Origin: a virus
Length of the DNA: 31,410 bases
IMG/VR virus record: IMGVR_UViG_3300050821_024081
Span: 1-31,410 of that record
Direction: 5' to 3' (one strand)
Below, in pieces: positions 9,063-20,668 of this stretch (position 1 is the stretch's first letter; each line of letters begins with the position of its first letter). The notes below the pieces were generated by a model. That model saw nothing but the letters and a program-made list of their open reading frames with translations, ran no database searches and had not been told where the DNA came from. The position numbers and the translations under genes were made by a program.

Positions 9063-9731
9063 GTGACTAAGAACGACCAATTCATTAGTCCTAGCTTCAA
9101 CGGGGACAAGCTCGATTCAGGCTCGCTGGAAGACAAGATTGATGTCTTCGAAGACCAAGTGAAAGGCTGGACGCTTCAACACGCCTACTATCTAACCACG
9201 AAGGAGAACCCCTCCGGCGCTCACAACGCCGGCTTTGCCATCCTCATGCTTGTTGGCGCTTACTTCGAGACCATCGAGAGCTGCTATCGCGGAACGTCAA
9301 GTAAGGGCAAATCCAAGGCCTTTTTCCGCGCGGGCTTTCTAAGGGTCTTTCCCGACCTGCCCAGCAAGGCTCAACCGATCATTAAAGGCAACCTGTCCGA
9401 TGAGGTAAACAAGCTTGTCGACGAGCTTTACACTGAGGTTCGTTGCGGTCTCTATCACGGAATGGCGACCAAGACGCGAGTGCTAATTACTAGAAACCGC
9501 ATACCCGTAACATTCGCTCTTAACAACTTCACTCTTTCAGCCATTGTCCTTGACCCTTGGTCCTTTCTCGAAGCGGTTGGCAACCATTTCGTCACGTTCT
9601 TGAAAGAGCTCCGCGACCCGGCAAACGCCTCTCTGCGAACCTCCTTTGAAAGATTCTTTGACGGCCAACGCGCAGCGCCGCCCGCTGCATTACCACCAGA
9701 CTTTTTCACTGGCGCCCGCTCCACCTACTAA
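9063..9731 (+). CDS. HEPN-like accessory protein between TerL and portal
   Basis: The frame begins at a GTG nine bases after the terL stop. The 222-aa protein is all-helical by eye. It contains VRCGLYHG at residues 126-133, an Arg127-x4-His132 arrangement matching the R-x4-6-H motif of HEPN RNases, followed by a basic segment (MATKTR). Similar lone proteins with an 'EDVRCGxxH' stretch occur in many bacteria as hypotheticals. It has no packaging motif and separates two normally adjacent head genes, so it looks like an inserted cargo gene. A role in abortive infection or superinfection exclusion is inference. Confidence 0.65.
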   Translation: MTKNDQFISPSFNGDKLDSGSLEDKIDVFEDQVKGWTLQHAYYLTTKENPSGAHNAGFAILMLVGAYFETIESCYRGTSSKGKSKAFFRAGFLRVFPDLPSKAQPIIKGNLSDEVNKLVDELYTEVRCGLYHGMATKTRVLITRNRIPVTFALNNFTLSAIVLDPWSFLEAVGNHFVTFLKELRDPANASLRTSFERFFDGQRAAPPAALPPDFFTGARSTY

Positions 9732-12948: not shown

Positions 12949-14037
12949 ATGAGTGCATACGCAACAAAGCTCGCCGAAGGTTTTTCGGCGAAGCTATCAA
13001 AGGAACTGTACGCGAACGCCCTTTTCGACCAGGCGGTCAACCGGGACTACGAAGGGGAGATCCTGAATGTCGGCTCTTTGCTGAACATTCTCGATTTCGC
13101 GCGGCTCTCTGAGAAGGACTACTCGGGTTCCAACCTCTCGGTTGACGACCTGAACGAGAACAACGGCCAGCTCTCGATCGATAAGCAGAAATCGTTCTAC
13201 TACCGCATCAAGAGCATCGACCAGTTCAAGTCCTACATCAAGAACCCGCAGTCCACGCTCGTGCAGCAGACCGCCGAGGAACGCCGGAAGAACATCGACA
13301 TCTACGTCTTTGGCAAGTACGGCAAGACCGCAGCAGGCCAGCGCATCGGCACGGACTACACGACCGGCACCGTCACCGTCACCACGGGCACGGGCGCAGT
13401 CGTGGGTTCCGGCACCACGTTCACCGCAGGTATGGTCGGTCGTGGCTTCAAGGCCACCGGCCACACGAAGTGGTATCGCGTCGCGACCTTCACGGACACG
13501 ACCCATATCACCATCGAGAACGACCTGGATGACGTAGCTTCGACCTACGACGGCGGCTCCATCTCTGGAGGCACCGCGTACGTCATCGAGGCCAATACGC
13601 CTATCCAGATGACAACCTCGAACGCGCTGCAGCTCTTGCTTCAGTTGAAGCAGAAGCTCGACGCGGCCGAAGTTCCGACGGCGGATCGCGTGCTTGTCCT
13701 CCCTACGGAGGTAGGCACCGTTCTCCCTCGCGGCACGAACATCAACATGGCGGTCCCCGCCGTGTACGACCAACTCATCAAGACCGGATGGCTGACCGAC
13801 CTGGCCGGCTTCCGCATCTACATGAGCGCCCGTCTCTCTGGCGACAACACCAATGGATACCACTCCATCGGCAACCAGAGGGGATGGCAGACCTTCGCCG
13901 ACAAGGTGATCAAAGCTCAGATGGAAGAGGACCTGATCGGGAACTTCGGTTCCGCGTTCAAGGACCTTTACGTCTACGGCTCCAAGGTCAAGGACAACCG
14001 GCGCAAATTCGGCGCTGAATTGTTCGTCTACGTCTAG
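12949..14037 (+). CDS. Major capsid protein with inserted beta domain
   Basis: The 362-aa protein sits after the scaffold-like gene. Its N-terminal arm (FSAKLSKELYANALFDQAVNR), E-loop-like region and C-terminal segment (MEEDLIGNFGSAFKDLYVYG, ending in VYV) match phage capsid proteins of the HK97 fold. Residues about 135-215 (TVTVTTGTGAVVGSGTTF, MVGRGF, TKWYRVATF) form a beta-rich insert of the kind seen as an extra surface domain in virion proteins. Hairpins flank the gene on both sides. Confidence 0.85.
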   Translation: MSAYATKLAEGFSAKLSKELYANALFDQAVNRDYEGEILNVGSLLNILDFARLSEKDYSGSNLSVDDLNENNGQLSIDKQKSFYYRIKSIDQFKSYIKNPQSTLVQQTAEERRKNIDIYVFGKYGKTAAGQRIGTDYTTGTVTVTTGTGAVVGSGTTFTAGMVGRGFKATGHTKWYRVATFTDTTHITIENDLDDVASTYDGGSISGGTAYVIEANTPIQMTTSNALQLLLQLKQKLDAAEVPTADRVLVLPTEVGTVLPRGTNINMAVPAVYDQLIKTGWLTDLAGFRIYMSARLSGDNTNGYHSIGNQRGWQTFADKVIKAQMEEDLIGNFGSAFKDLYVYGSKVKDNRRKFGAELFVYV

Positions 14038-15243: not shown

Positions 15244-15432
15244 ATGAACGAAACCACACCATGCTGTGAGACCAAGCAGGGCGTTCCAGCCCACGACCGC
15301 CTCGACCTCGTCCAGCAGACCGAACAGTACGCCGCGCCGGAATGCGGAACCGTCAGTCCCGCGACCGGCAAGGCTGCCTACTGCTGCTTCGACTGTCCGA
15401 CCCTCGTCGCCAAGATCAAAGACGCTTCCTAG
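15244..15432 (+). CDS. Cys-rich small protein (62 aa)
   Basis: The 62-residue protein has CC near the N-terminus (TTPCCETKQG), a central Cys, and CCFDC near the C-terminus. The spacing could support one metal site or disulfides. It starts eight bases after the previous stop. No known family; position in the structural block suggests a virion or assembly role. Confidence 0.5.
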   Translation: MNETTPCCETKQGVPAHDRLDLVQQTEQYAAPECGTVSPATGKAAYCCFDCPTLVAKIKDAS

Positions 15433-15434
15433 CC

Positions 15435-15809
15435 ATGATCAAAGGCGAGAAGGCATCCGGATACTTCTCGACGATCGACGTTCGCTCCGGCCTTAAAGTT
15501 GAAGGTGAGACGCGACAGTGTTCGCACTGTCAGTTCACCTGGCAATATAAGGCCGGTAGCGGCCGGCGCGTCGGGCTTTGCGGTTCCTGTAACGGCCTCA
15601 TGTGCACGCAGGAAGCCTGCCGCACCGATCAGCTCCGCAAGATCAAATTGCTCGAACTCGAAGACGGCAAGACCTACGACTGCGTACCTTTCGATGAATG
15701 GAACTATCACCTCCGCATGAAAGCCGAAAAAGTAAAGCAATCCACCGGAGCGAAATACGGCCAGGACTTTGTCTTGAACGATAACGGCATCCTTCTACGA
15801 CCCGATTAA
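15435..15809 (+). CDS. Zinc-ribbon phage protein (124 aa)
   Basis: I chose the ATG at 15435, two bases after the previous stop, over an in-frame ATG at 15342 inside that gene. The protein has CSHC followed by LCGSCNGLMC about 20 residues later, a four-Cys zinc ribbon; the C-terminal half is helical and charged. Similar small zinc-ribbon proteins lie near tail or head-completion genes in many phages, with no known function. Confidence 0.6.
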   Translation: MIKGEKASGYFSTIDVRSGLKVEGETRQCSHCQFTWQYKAGSGRRVGLCGSCNGLMCTQEACRTDQLRKIKLLELEDGKTYDCVPFDEWNYHLRMKAEKVKQSTGAKYGQDFVLNDNGILLRPD

Positions 15810-16502
15810 ATGCCCATCTCCCGCCCCGACACCCCCCATCAGGCCAACGGATTGACTGGCACATCCGGCACCGTCCAACACACCTGCTCCGGTTCCAACC
15901 GGATCGTTTTCGCCGCCGTTGAGGCCGGAGGTGCCCAGCCCACCGGCGTCACCTACGACACCGTGTCGATGACCCAGATTAACGTCCAGGTCCAGGGCGG
16001 CCATCACTGGTCACTCTGGTATCTCCTGAATCCCAACACAACGTCCAACGCGAACTGCAAAGCCAGCTTCTCCGGCTCGCAGTCCTACATCGACATCATG
16101 GTCGCGAGCTACGCGGGCGTGAACCAGTCCATGACCTACGGCGGAGGCAGCCCGACCGATGTCAATGTCGTCGGTAGCGGCGGCAGTCCCTACACCTCGA
16201 ACTTCACTACGATCAAGGACAACTCCTGGGCCATTCTCTACGGAGCTGACACCACGAGCGGTACCGCTCCCACCGCGAGCACCGGCTCCGTCTTCCTCAT
16301 CACGACGAGTGACGGCACATCGCTCTACGACACGAACGCCGCGCTTACGCCTGCCGGGGGCTGGGGCATGACGCTCACCTTTTCAAGCACCATCTACACC
16401 ATCGTCGCATCCTTCTCCCCAGCCGCCGCCGACCCGGCTCTCGAATCCATGCCGCCCGTCTCCCAGCCCACCTCCCACTGGATCCCCCAACTTTCCATGT
16501 AA
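15810..16502 (+). CDS. Virion surface protein, beta-sandwich type
   Basis: The 230-aa protein is Ser/Thr/Gly-rich and all beta. Segments such as NRIVFAAVEAGG, PTGVTYDTVSMTQIN and SYAGVNQS are typical of a domain found in phage and metagenomic virion or fibre proteins. The C-terminus is Pro-rich (PPVSQPTSHWIPQ), a style continued by the next gene, which starts directly after this stop codon. Likely exposed on head or tail. Confidence 0.6.
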   Translation: MPISRPDTPHQANGLTGTSGTVQHTCSGSNRIVFAAVEAGGAQPTGVTYDTVSMTQINVQVQGGHHWSLWYLLNPNTTSNANCKASFSGSQSYIDIMVASYAGVNQSMTYGGGSPTDVNVVGSGGSPYTSNFTTIKDNSWAILYGADTTSGTAPTASTGSVFLITTSDGTSLYDTNAALTPAGGWGMTLTFSSTIYTIVASFSPAAADPALESMPPVSQPTSHWIPQLSM

Positions 16503-17879
16503 ATGCGGACCGCCATTCCCTCCCCAAGCCAAGTACCCGGATTCATCCAAGGTCCGACCATCCAGCCGTGGTTCGTCTACCCCACGAACCAGCCCGACCA
16601 GGCCCGCTACGACCTTCTCCGCTCCGCATTCCGCTACATCGTCGCGGCCACGCCCCAGGTCCACCAAGCCGCCGCGTCCCTGCGCACGGACCCCATCCCT
16701 CCCGTCACAACCAGGCCGGAACTCCGTTACAACATCCCCGACCTGAACCGCGCATGGATGTGGGAAGGCCCCGAGCAGCAGCTTGACGGACCAACCTCCC
16801 AAAGAACCGACCCAATCCCCCCTGTCACCGCCCGCCCGGAGATGCGCTACTACTTGCCCGACGCGAACCGATATATCTGGGAAGGCCCCGAACAGTTCTT
16901 CGACGGGCCTACCGTCTCGGCGACCGTTCCAATTCCCCCGGTCACCACCCGTCCAGAGCTGCGGTATTACCTTCCCGACATCAACCGCTACATCTCCGAA
17001 GGCCCTGAACCACAACTGGACGGGCCGACCAAGATGCGGACCGACCCGATTCCTCCTGTCTCCAAACCGGAGATGGCCTACTACTTCCGGGATGTGGACC
17101 GCATCCTCGCGGGCGCGGGACCGACGAAGCAGTACGACGGGCCAACCTCGATGCAGACGCATCCCACACCACCCGTCACCACTCGTCCCGAATTTCGCTA
17201 CTACGTCCCAGACATCAACAAATACATCTCTGAAGGGCCAGAACCCCAGCTCGACGGACCCACGAAGCTACGTACCGACCCTATCCCGCCTGTCACGACC
17301 CGGCCCGAGCTTCGGTACTACTTGCCGGATGAAAACAGGTACATACCTCAAGGCCCGCAACCGCAGCTTACCGGGGCACCCGTCATGGACACCGTGCCTG
17401 TCCCGCCTGTCACTACGCGACCCGAATATCGTTATTACCTCCCTGACGAGAACCGTTACATGCGTCAAGGTCCGAAGGAGCAATTCGAGGGCTCGACCGT
17501 GATGCGAACCGATCCAGTGCCGCCGGTCTCCAATCCCGTGCTTCCCTACTGGCAGGCCGCGCAGCGAAACCCGAACGCCATTCAGGGTGGTCTCGGACCC
17601 GCCCCGCAGACGACCGGACCCGTCAACCAACAGACCTATATCTTCCCGCCGAACAAGCCGGAGTTCGCCTACTACTTCCGAGACGTGAACCGCGTCATGT
17701 CCGGATGGGACCGGCTTCTTTCCCACGTCACCGATTTCTTCTCGCGCTACCGCAAGAAGTACCCGAGCGCTCCTGGCTCCTACGCTACGAAGTACGCAGA
17801 CGCCCCGGGCACCTACGCCGACAAATACCCCAAGGTCGAAGGTACCTACTCCGAAAAATACCCCTCAAATGGAGCCTAA
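16503..17879 (+). CDS. Proline-rich tandem-repeat virion protein (458 aa)
   Basis: About nine repeats of 39-40 residues fill residues 61-400. Each runs roughly DPIPPVTTRPELRYYLPD, a polar spacer with NRY, then EGPEPQLDGPT. Unit starts are near residues 61, 101, 140, 179, 218, 257, 296, 335 and 377. The tail (418-454) has a second repeat of 11 residues (KY-x-x-APGTY-x-x). There is no signal, Cys or catalytic motif. It begins right after the previous stop and is followed by an overlapping coiled-coil gene, within the virion block. I know no family of this kind; a rod-like or decorating virion protein is inferred. Confidence 0.75.
   Translation: MRTAIPSPSQVPGFIQGPTIQPWFVYPTNQPDQARYDLLRSAFRYIVAATPQVHQAAASLRTDPIPPVTTRPELRYNIPDLNRAWMWEGPEQQLDGPTSQRTDPIPPVTARPEMRYYLPDANRYIWEGPEQFFDGPTVSATVPIPPVTTRPELRYYLPDINRYISEGPEPQLDGPTKMRTDPIPPVSKPEMAYYFRDVDRILAGAGPTKQYDGPTSMQTHPTPPVTTRPEFRYYVPDINKYISEGPEPQLDGPTKLRTDPIPPVTTRPELRYYLPDENRYIPQGPQPQLTGAPVMDTVPVPPVTTRPEYRYYLPDENRYMRQGPKEQFEGSTVMRTDPVPPVSNPVLPYWQAAQRNPNAIQGGLGPAPQTTGPVNQQTYIFPPNKPEFAYYFRDVNRVMSGWDRLLSHVTDFFSRYRKKYPSAPGSYATKYADAPGTYADKYPKVEGTYSEKYPSNGA
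16683..17705 (+). repeat. Coding tandem repeats, about 117-120 bp, nine units
   Basis: Unit starts lie at about 16683, 16803, 16920, 17037, 17154, 17271, 17388, 17505 and 17631. Units 4 and 9 are diverged, reading KPEMAYYFRDV and KPEFAYYFRDV instead of RPELRYYLPD. DNA differs at many third positions, so the copies are old or kept by protein-level selection, not a recent expansion. Confidence 0.8.
17754..17870 (+). repeat. Coding 33-bp (11-aa) tyrosine repeats
   Basis: At the C-terminus, four successive KY-starting units (KYPSAPGSYAT, KYADAPGTYAD, KYPKVEGTYSE, then a partial KYPSNGA) follow a fixed 11-residue period. Confidence 0.75.
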
Positions 17880-18165
17880 AGACCACGACGTCCTCGTAAC
17901 CATCGCCACCCAAGTGGAACGCCTCATCTCTGACGTGAAGGATGTTCGCGCCGACATCGCCGATGTAAAGAGCGACCTTGCAAACCGCGTGGCCACCCTC
18001 GAAAGCGAGAAGCTGTCCAGAGCCGATTTCACCGCTGCGCAAAACGAGCACGTTGCGATGCACAAGGCGTTCGATGACCGTCTGTCTTTCGTCGAGCGGG
18101 CCGTATGGATAGGAATCGGCGGCCTCGGGATACTCGAAATAGCCTTCAAATTTTTCATCAAATGA
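17869..18165 (+). CDS. Coiled coil plus C-terminal TM protein, XhlA-like
   Basis: The 98-aa protein has a long coiled coil (ATQVERLISDVKDVRADIAD and onwards) and one C-terminal membrane helix (VWIGIGGLGILEIAFKFF). This is the layout of XhlA-type and related phage membrane proteins, which cooperate with holins in lysis. It overlaps the repeat-protein gene by 11 bases and the next gene by four. Its place in the tail block leaves a virion-assembly or membrane-anchoring role open. Confidence 0.6.
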   Translation: MEPKDHDVLVTIATQVERLISDVKDVRADIADVKSDLANRVATLESEKLSRADFTAAQNEHVAMHKAFDDRLSFVERAVWIGIGGLGILEIAFKFFIK

Positions 18166-19820
18166 TCAAGAGCGCTCCCTTCGGCTTCCCACGGACGTAC
18201 GGCTTCGGAGACGGGCGTCATTCACGCGGTCGCTACCCCATCGAGTACTACTTCTCCCAAGGCATGCAAAAAGGCATGTGGGGCCTCATGACCGGAATGA
18301 ACGTCATCAAGCTCAAGGACTCCGTCGACCTCTCGGGAATGGGAAACATCAAATGGTTCGCCGATGCGAGCGGGCATGTCTACGCCATCGACGACGTCGG
18401 CAAAGTCTGGAAAGAACAGACCCCCGGCGTAGGGGATTTTGCGGCCGAGCACACCGTCTCCGGTTCCACCTCCTCCGGCCAGGGTCTTATCGGCGACCAA
18501 CAGGGCCGCATCCTCGCTTTTGCGACGACAACCATCTCCAAGTACGACGGCACTTGGTCGGACTCCTGGAAGACCGGCCTCACGAACTACGAGCACCCTG
18601 CCGACACCTACGAGGACATGGTCATCTTTGGCAACAAGGACGCGGTGGGACTCATCGACAACGCCGACAACATGAACCTCGTCGGCCTGAACCTTCCCAT
18701 AGGCATGACCGTCGATTGCCTCAAGGCCGGAAAGACCGGAATCCTCATCGGAGCAAATCTTGGCAACCGCGGCGTGCTCATGCTCTGGAACACGCAAACC
18801 GACCGCTCACTCGCGCCCTGGTATTGGGCCAGCGGCAAAATCCAATCCATCGAGCGCGTAGACAACGGCTGGATCGTCGTCACGCAGAAGCAGATACTTC
18901 TCACGACCGGCTACGCGACCCGCGAGCTCTTCCCCATCCTCGACGACCCGATGGGCTACTCGAACTATGTCGTCGCTCCCCAGGGAACCCTTGTCGTCAA
19001 CAACAAGCTTTTCATCCTGAACCAGTCGAACGGCTACACCCGCCTGCGTTCCGGCCTCTACATCTTCGACCTCTCGACCACCTTGAACGAGTTCGTGCCC
19101 GTCTCGACGCAGAATGTCACCACCGTCATACCGAACGCGATCTACGCCGCGAAGACAACCACGCAAGAGATATTCCTCGGCTATCGGGACAGCTTCTTTT
19201 CCAAGAACTACATCGGCAGCCTCGTTGTCTCCGGCGGAACGATCGCGCAGTATTACCCGGAGATTCTCGCCGACACGCCCGAAGAGAAGGTTGCGAGCGC
19301 CGTCATCCTGAACCTCGGCCTCGGAACCGTACTCTCTTCGGTCCAGAACCTCAGCTTCAACATCGCCGTGAAGCTCTACAACTTCAAGCGACCTCTTTGG
19401 GGAGTGAATGTCACGAACGCCACCGACCTCGTGACCACGCTCCGCGTTGACGGAACGAACGCCAGCCTGACCCGTCCCCAGATAGGCGACGAAGTCACTA
19501 TCCTCGAAGGACTAAATGCCGGCCTCTCCCGACATGTAACCGCCATCGCTTTCCAGGGAGCGTTGAACGAGACATGGACGCTCGACTCTGCGCTACCGAA
19601 TGTCACGGAAACTTCCGTTCACTTGAGCATCCAGCCTTTCGTGCTCGTCGAACGAAAGCTCATCACGTCCGCAGCGAATCTCCCTGAGATGTTCTTCAAC
19701 GTCAAGAACAGTTACAAAGGCAAGAAGTTCCTCGCAAAGGTCGTCATTGATTCCGCGAGCACCCAGCTCGAAATTCACCGCTCCGAGTTCTTCTACGACG
19801 ACCTCGGCCTCACCACATGA
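18162..19820 (+). CDS. Large beta-rich tail/virion protein (552 aa)
   Basis: I chose the ATG at 18162, which overlaps the previous stop (ATGA). The protein is built of repeated beta blades (IKWFADASGHVYAIDDVGK, QGRILAFATTTISKYDG, GWIVVTQKQILLTTGY), suggesting a beta-propeller-like N-terminal two thirds and a smaller C-terminal beta domain. Such proteins in short-tailed phages form tail or host-contact parts. No peptidase or hydrolase motif is evident. Confidence 0.65.
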   Translation: MIKSAPFGFPRTYGFGDGRHSRGRYPIEYYFSQGMQKGMWGLMTGMNVIKLKDSVDLSGMGNIKWFADASGHVYAIDDVGKVWKEQTPGVGDFAAEHTVSGSTSSGQGLIGDQQGRILAFATTTISKYDGTWSDSWKTGLTNYEHPADTYEDMVIFGNKDAVGLIDNADNMNLVGLNLPIGMTVDCLKAGKTGILIGANLGNRGVLMLWNTQTDRSLAPWYWASGKIQSIERVDNGWIVVTQKQILLTTGYATRELFPILDDPMGYSNYVVAPQGTLVVNNKLFILNQSNGYTRLRSGLYIFDLSTTLNEFVPVSTQNVTTVIPNAIYAAKTTTQEIFLGYRDSFFSKNYIGSLVVSGGTIAQYYPEILADTPEEKVASAVILNLGLGTVLSSVQNLSFNIAVKLYNFKRPLWGVNVTNATDLVTTLRVDGTNASLTRPQIGDEVTILEGLNAGLSRHVTAIAFQGALNETWTLDSALPNVTETSVHLSIQPFVLVERKLITSAANLPEMFFNVKNSYKGKKFLAKVVIDSASTQLEIHRSEFFYDDLGLTT

Positions 19821-20668
19821 TCAGTTCCGACGACATTCAAAGCGCGAGGACGGCGCAAGCCGCTACGGAAGCGGCAGCCGCACAATCCGATACCTCATCC
19901 GGCTCCTCTCCCTCATCGAGCGGCCCAACCGACTCGTTCACCCTCGACGATTTCCTGCCCATCCTCACGAACCTTCTCGTCCCCAGAAACTTTCTCGCCG
20001 CAGCTCCCACATTCACGCCGAAGACACTCGTCGATTCCATCCAGTTCGTTTTCGACGGGACCACCTACAGCCTCTACCTCTTCATCAACGGCGACTGGCG
20101 TCAATTCACGAACTCAAGCCCTGTAACCCAGATCATCGCCGGACCCGGCATCACCGTAGCTCCGGGCAGCGGCATCGGTGCCGTGACTGTCGGGAACGGC
20201 GGTGTCGAGCAACTTCTCGCAGGCTCCAACATCACTCTTTCCCCCATCGGAGGTACAGGTATCGTAACCGTGAACGCTCTCTACCCTCCCACCTTCCAAG
20301 TAACCACGGGCCTCGCTACCCGCGCCGGAAACGCCTCCTCCGGGAACCAGACCATCCCCCACGGCCTCGGCAAAACCCCCTCGCTTCTCAAGATCGCTGC
20401 CCTATGGGCTTCCGGGACGCCAGTACTGCTGCAATCCTTCGGCACCTACAACGGCACTCTCACGAATACAGCCTTCTCCTGGACCATGGTAGGAACCGGC
20501 GGCGGCGCGGACCACGACACCACGAACATCGTCTTCATATCAGACCACTCCGGAAATACTCAGATTGCCACCGTCACGATGGACGCGACCAACATCAACC
20601 TGGCCTGGACCGCCTCTGGTTCGCTCGGCGCGAACCTCATCCAACTCCTCTGGGAAACGTGGGGCTAA
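19817..20668 (+). CDS. Tail-fibre-like protein (283 aa)
   Basis: Coupled to the previous gene by ATGA. The N-terminus is Ser/Ala-rich and flexible. The centre has GPGITVAPGSGIGAVTV and AGSNITLSPIGGTGIVTV, repeats typical of trimeric fibre shafts; the C-terminal domain opens with IPHGLGKTPSLLKIAALW, like the terminal domain of many phage fibres. It probably binds the host surface. It ends the first structural block; a promoter-like element follows. Confidence 0.75.
   Translation: MISSDDIQSARTAQAATEAAAAQSDTSSGSSPSSSGPTDSFTLDDFLPILTNLLVPRNFLAAAPTFTPKTLVDSIQFVFDGTTYSLYLFINGDWRQFTNSSPVTQIIAGPGITVAPGSGIGAVTVGNGGVEQLLAGSNITLSPIGGTGIVTVNALYPPTFQVTTGLATRAGNASSGNQTIPHGLGKTPSLLKIAALWASGTPVLLQSFGTYNGTLTNTAFSWTMVGTGGGADHDTTNIVFISDHSGNTQIATVTMDATNINLAWTASGSLGANLIQLLWETWG

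Follow-up and report, generated by a model that had tools for sequence, protein, structure and literature searches.

The gene at positions 16503-17879 (+ strand) of the window, the 31,410-nucleotide stretch of viral DNA analysed here (IMG/VR virus record IMGVR_UViG_3300050821_024081), is open for 458 aa and encodes a repeat protein, which probably serves as the stalk and docking half of a two-polypeptide virion-surface adhesin in a temperate phage of soil Acidobacteriota (Thermoanaerobaculia). The adjacent upstream gene would supply the lectin-like binding half, the two being joined via a TAA/ATG stop-start junction. A conserved C-terminal helix followed by four 11-residue Tyr/Lys repeats would attach the fibre to a conserved partner in the virion, and the eight to nine Pro/Tyr-rich units would form an extended, length-adjustable spacer keeping the lectin off the particle.

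The protein begins with 59 non-repetitive residues (IQGPTIQPWFVYPTNQPDQARY; 16503..16679, + strand) that are conserved in an ortholog on contig L110 and show no significant similarity to the 39-residue unit when searched with a unit profile; they may be where the upstream lectin protein makes contact. The putative stalk (16680..17630, + strand) consists of eight tandem units, each 39-43 residues long, which are defined by their period, anchor motifs and unit profile and have the consensus xRTDPIPPVTTRPELRYYLPDxNRYIxEGPxPQLDGPTx. Full units start near residues 60, 100, 139, 178, 217, 256, 295 and 334, and a ninth, half unit (NKPEFAYYFRDVNRVMS; 17631..17702, + strand) is recognized by the unit profile with an i-Evalue of 2.7e-5. 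A previous reading from sequence only had counted nine 39-residue units. The period stands, with 139 identical residue pairs at lag 39 against a maximum of 54 at any lag of 20-79 in 2000 composition shuffles, while the count becomes eight full units and a half. The strictness of the period is likewise borne out by nine anchor motifs at residues 64, 104, 143, 182, 221, 260, 299, 338 and 381, whose spacings (40, 39, 39, 39, 39, 39, 39 and 43) stay within 39-40 residues except for the last. The two unit classes that had been described are real, units 4 and 9 being of the KPE-AYYFRDV type, and the diverged unit 8 represents a third type, more readily recognized in the L110 ortholog (NPEMSYWQRD). 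At the DNA level, Tandem Repeats Finder found only two units alike enough to report (75% matches). The Pro/Tyr-rich array contains 19% Pro and no Cys, and its composition falls just past the boundary towards disorder in a charge-hydropathy comparison. It is followed by a helix (residues 401-419; 17703..17759, + strand) that aligns with a conserved helix (..KKYLNGLLxxFS..) of related fibres. The C-terminal tag, a putative docking element at 17757..17876 (+ strand), contains the KY-x-x-APGTY repeats noticed earlier, four in number with a period of 11 residues and the last one truncated (KYPSAPGSYAT KYADAPGTYAD KYPKVEGTYSE KYPS).

The units are maintained by purifying selection. Among RPE-type units identity is about 0.77-0.87 at second codon positions and 0.31-0.51 at third positions, in agreement with the initial impression of a conserved protein with drifting third positions. 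Synonymous sites are near saturation across units 2-7 (mean ps 0.72) and pn is only about 0.13-0.29 among RPE-type units, indicating that the array is old and has been held by selection at the protein level. The same regime is seen between orthologs. L110 is a 156-kb contig of a Thermoanaerobaculia metagenome-assembled genome (isolate Chersky.9_17) that carries a provirus with the same gene order as the window and a major capsid protein 97% identical to that of the window. Its repeat protein has 417 residues with 79% identity and lacks exactly one 39-residue unit, the only other gaps being two of a single residue each; the comparison gives dS 1.19, dN 0.15 and a dN/dS of about 0.13. The number of units thus changes between orthologs, and tag and genomic position are conserved. 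On the right side of the L110 provirus the integrase adjoins tRNA-Asp, with bacterial-type genes beyond. Together with the shared gene order, this makes it most likely that the window phage is temperate in Thermoanaerobaculia (Acidobacteriota).

These two proteins are the only known members of the 39-residue stalk type, and the unit itself is not seen beyond the window and L110. Among 149 Thermoanaerobaculia genomes the repeat protein occurs in none except L110's own. IMG/VR scans with the repeat protein, the L110 copy and the repeat units gave no homolog (the window itself is an IMG/VR record), a scan of species genomes with the repeat protein gave no match, and tblastn gave weak matches, with E values of 0.01 and 0.09, to two virus records of marine origin. 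L110 was found later via its capsid protein, so direct homolog scans can miss real copies. The 39-residue unit has no significant match in Pfam, PHROG or PDB profile/sequence searches. Nor does the whole protein match any PHROG profile, minor tail protein PHROG 553/2106 included, or the Ig-like domains of Hoc-type head decoration in Pfam. Two Pfam identities were rejected: BBP2 falls below the curated cut-off in both orthologs, and Spectrin_5 is a weak match below its own cut-off.

A regular rod or ring of units had been anticipated, and the models do not show one. For three units supplied with an alignment of other units, AlphaFold2 returned neither fold nor secondary structure (mean pLDDT 51, pTM 0.11). 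In the full protein the helix at 401-419 reaches a pLDDT of about 80 and the tag repeats form one-turn helices, with the rest mostly below 50. Both models rest on shallow alignments, of 7 and 10 rows. Either an extended chain or a stalk that folds only upon oligomerization is conceivable.

The tag connects the protein to a wider group of fibres. Related uncultured phages were gathered by homologs of the capsid protein and of a conserved 571-aa virion-block protein (18105..19820, + strand), whose homologs mark the fibre locus in relatives. Most relatives carry a long fibre-like gene between a capsid-side 165-aa gene and the 571-aa gene; in three with the 571-aa gene (L092, L093 and L108) the interval up to the 165-aa gene holds no fibre gene. 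The fibres share one plan, consisting of an N-terminal lectin-like domain, a tandem-repeat stalk, a short helix and, at the C-terminus, between two and five repeats of 11 residues (for example FSDKYSSRGTSYSDKY), and tagged genes of this kind lie at the locus in L002, L003, L008, L017, L031, L060, L061, L063, L064, L076, L086, L087, L089, L090, L094, L096, L104 and others. The N-terminal domain is LamG (Pfam PF13385) in L002, L008, L031, L061 and L086. Other relatives have a non-LamG beta-sandwich-like N-terminus, of the lam230 type in L003, L096 and the partner gene of L110, and the lam230-type domain matches minor-tail-protein PHROGs. A tag profile built from the last 75 residues of relatives, with the window and L110 excluded, finds residues 402-455 of the window protein at E=2.2e-12, whereas among 500 copies in which the tail was shuffled the best reached E=0.68. 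Across all fetched loci the tag pattern occurs in 37 ORFs, some from the same contig fetched twice, versus 2 after the C-termini were shuffled. The lectin-stalk-tag family is defined in this analysis. The repeat protein has its locus between the 165-aa and 571-aa genes, its helix and tag and its tandem-repeat stalk; the lectin-like domain is not in the same polypeptide but in the upstream gene instead. Fused fibres (L002, L003, L008, L060, L061, L076, L086, L091, L096, L104 and others) accordingly share locus, stalk, helix and tag with the window protein but are built on unrelated 18-, 20- or 24-residue repeats and usually carry the lectin in the same polypeptide. The sequence-only reading knew of no such family, which stays true of the 39-residue repeat, without a Pfam, PHROG or PDB family, and gives way for the protein as a whole, which the tag links to a modular fibre family.

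Stalks of different types replace one another within this family. Their periods among relatives are 18, 20, 22 or 24 residues, and the distant phages L051, L071 and L075 have similar C-terminal repeats behind quite different stalks, made of Ser-Pro low complexity or of 14-residue Trp/Tyr or RDLRITG repeats. In the L051 protein (18910-20571) an N-terminus that looks discoidin-like by eye is followed by a long low-complexity Ser-Pro stretch and the 11-residue-type tag TYTDKYEVKNNTYIAKY; that of L071 (8925-9389) is a 154-aa protein of 14-residue Trp/Tyr repeats (FTYKWNICGLLTRT) with a tag-like end. The even periods of these other stalks (14-24) would suit beta-strand alternation, whereas 39 is odd. 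For the L061 stalk, a Pfam identity as PhiKZ gp86 was rejected, being below the curated cut-off and absent from other stalks of the same type. Mapped on a 27-tip tree built from the 571-aa protein, the stalk classes require 13 changes; the mean for shuffled labels is 16.1 and the minimum possible 5. Phages of the 39-residue class form a single clade of one origin (support 98/96), nested within phages whose stalks have 18-, 20- and 24-residue repeats. The repeated changes on the tree indicate that the stalk is exchangeable and the C-terminal tag constant. Because this end is constant, it is taken to dock on the particle with the lectin outward; that the C-terminus, and not the N-terminus, would face the particle is deduced from conservation alone.

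The free exchange of stalks also bears on the possibility that the protein is an internal or neck component, for example a tail needle, a plug or an ejection protein, whose array would be flexible and rich in Pro. The position in the virion block and the predicted lack of a stable fold in the repeats would suit such a component, but needle and ejection proteins do not trade their stalks in this way, and the LamG or lectin-like domains within the same polypeptide in relatives fit an exposed protein, so that this is a very improbable assignment.

The putative binding half of the adhesin is encoded immediately upstream (15810..16502, + strand) as a 230-aa beta-sandwich/lectin-like domain protein, recognized by its similarity to the N-termini of fused fibres. 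Over 191 aa it shares 37% identity with the N-terminal part of L003:7644-10058, a fused fibre; identity is 33% to the L096 fibre and 59% to its L110 ortholog. Its ligand would be a sugar. The L110 ortholog matches PHROG 553 'minor tail protein' (E=3.9e-6), while the window protein has no match. In the window the upstream stop meets the repeat-gene start in frame (ATG TAA|ATG CGG). In L110 (TAA ACG ATG) the two genes are also separate and in frame, with the stop one codon away. The N-terminal part is likewise a separate upstream gene, divided at the same domain boundary, in L087, L064, L094 and L017. These layouts make it unlikely that the window carries one nonsense-interrupted gene produced by assembly error. 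The reading frame is kept in five of six splits (binomial P 0.018; 0.045 if the two orthologs count as one), and the split genes possibly derive from a fused ancestor. Repeat units do not run across the stop, since the C-terminus of the upstream protein scores within shuffles against the unit profile. Three of these split lectin/stalk pairs, at L087:8022-9602, L064:13240-14331 and L094:8539-9971, have short end motifs in common: the upstream proteins end in QA[IV]xR..Y and the downstream proteins begin with MARFGRxQP or MRHGRSFP. These motifs are possibly the joint between the two proteins. The adhesin reading has to be set against the facts that the repeat protein itself carries no lectin domain and was given no confident fold and that its stalk type has two known members only; the fusion of a lectin-like domain to the same stalk-tag architecture in relatives is observed directly.

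The gene was placed in the virion block from the outset, and its neighbours confirm this, with TerL, portal, scaffold and capsid protein genes upstream and the 571-aa protein, adaptor, LysM and ejection-type genes downstream. The major capsid protein (12949..14037, + strand; PHROG 267, E=2.6e-13) is the synteny anchor. Directly after the repeat gene comes a 98-aa coiled-coil protein with a C-terminal membrane segment, as judged by eye (17869..18165, + strand), replaced by a holin-like gene in L086, L087 and L089. Two other genes lie in this region: one at 15342-15809, encoding 155 aa with several CxxC pairs (zinc-ribbon-like) and 53% identical in L110, and one at 9063-9731 between terminase and portal, encoding a 222-aa protein, possibly a HEPN-like accessory by eye, that has no PHROG match and no homolog within the 60 kb read from the L110 contig. 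A location in the virion would be consistent with the setting of the repeat gene. The holin-like neighbour in some relatives, and the indirect nature of the virion assignment, would also allow a repeat protein outside the virion, with a surface or regulatory role, that the prophage encodes within its late operon. This is improbable, given the conserved position within the morphogenesis block and an N-terminus that by eye has no obvious signal peptide.

Its relatives give hints as to whether such an adhesin would sit on the tail or on the head. Gp24 of phage Archie, a mycobacteriophage minor tail protein (PHROG 553/2106), has an N-terminal domain related to the family of the upstream gene, a repetitive body with short C-terminal repeats (by eye) and a preceding small 'head protein' gene, as in L003. 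Archie differs in being a long-tailed mycobacteriophage with another C-terminal repeat and no 39-residue units. The likeness points to a tail adhesin, although annotation names are not proof. A head-decoration fibre of the same architecture, docked on the capsid like T4 Hoc or phi29 gp8.5 and adhering loosely to cells or surfaces, is rather unlikely but has several points to its credit. The gene follows the capsid protein gene and the conserved 165-aa gene, which is probably a capsid accessory, and the gene just upstream in L002 and L003 matches PHROG 240 'head protein'. T4 Hoc displays outward beta-sandwich domains with its non-Ig domain 4 on the capsid (PMC7602432), and Hoc and the phi29 gp8.5 head fibres both serve adhesion, are exposed and have a docking domain (PMC7602432, PMC6542822). 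Against a head fibre, the best known relatives of the lectin domain are mycobacteriophage minor tail proteins, and in the more distant relatives L051, L071 and L075 a greater distance separates the tag protein from the capsid gene. Both known fibres are alike in the proposed exposed-fibre plan, but no sequence similarity to the window protein was found, and phi29 gp8.5 docks by its N-terminus (residues 1-110; PMC6542822) whereas the conserved end of the window protein is the C-terminus. Tandem repeats in a phage protein are also known from the crAssphage BACON-domain protein (PMC6949934). The BACON repeats are carbohydrate-binding domains, in contrast to the 39-residue units, which have no predicted fold.

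Beyond the two-part adhesin, a broader reading is put forward tentatively, as possible rather than probable. The C-terminal 11-residue Tyr/Lys repeat might be an unrecognised general docking tag that brings any stalk or lectin joined to it into the virion, and so a socket for exchangeable fibres in many soil phages, with the window fibre further split into two proteins and given a new Pro/Tyr-rich spacer. If this is true, a short C-terminal peptide would define virion docking across many uncultured soil phages. Searches with the tag would then reveal fast-changing adhesins that are otherwise unrecognisable and hint at their binding targets, and the family would provide a test case for how stalks of different repeat chemistry replace each other in one fibre.
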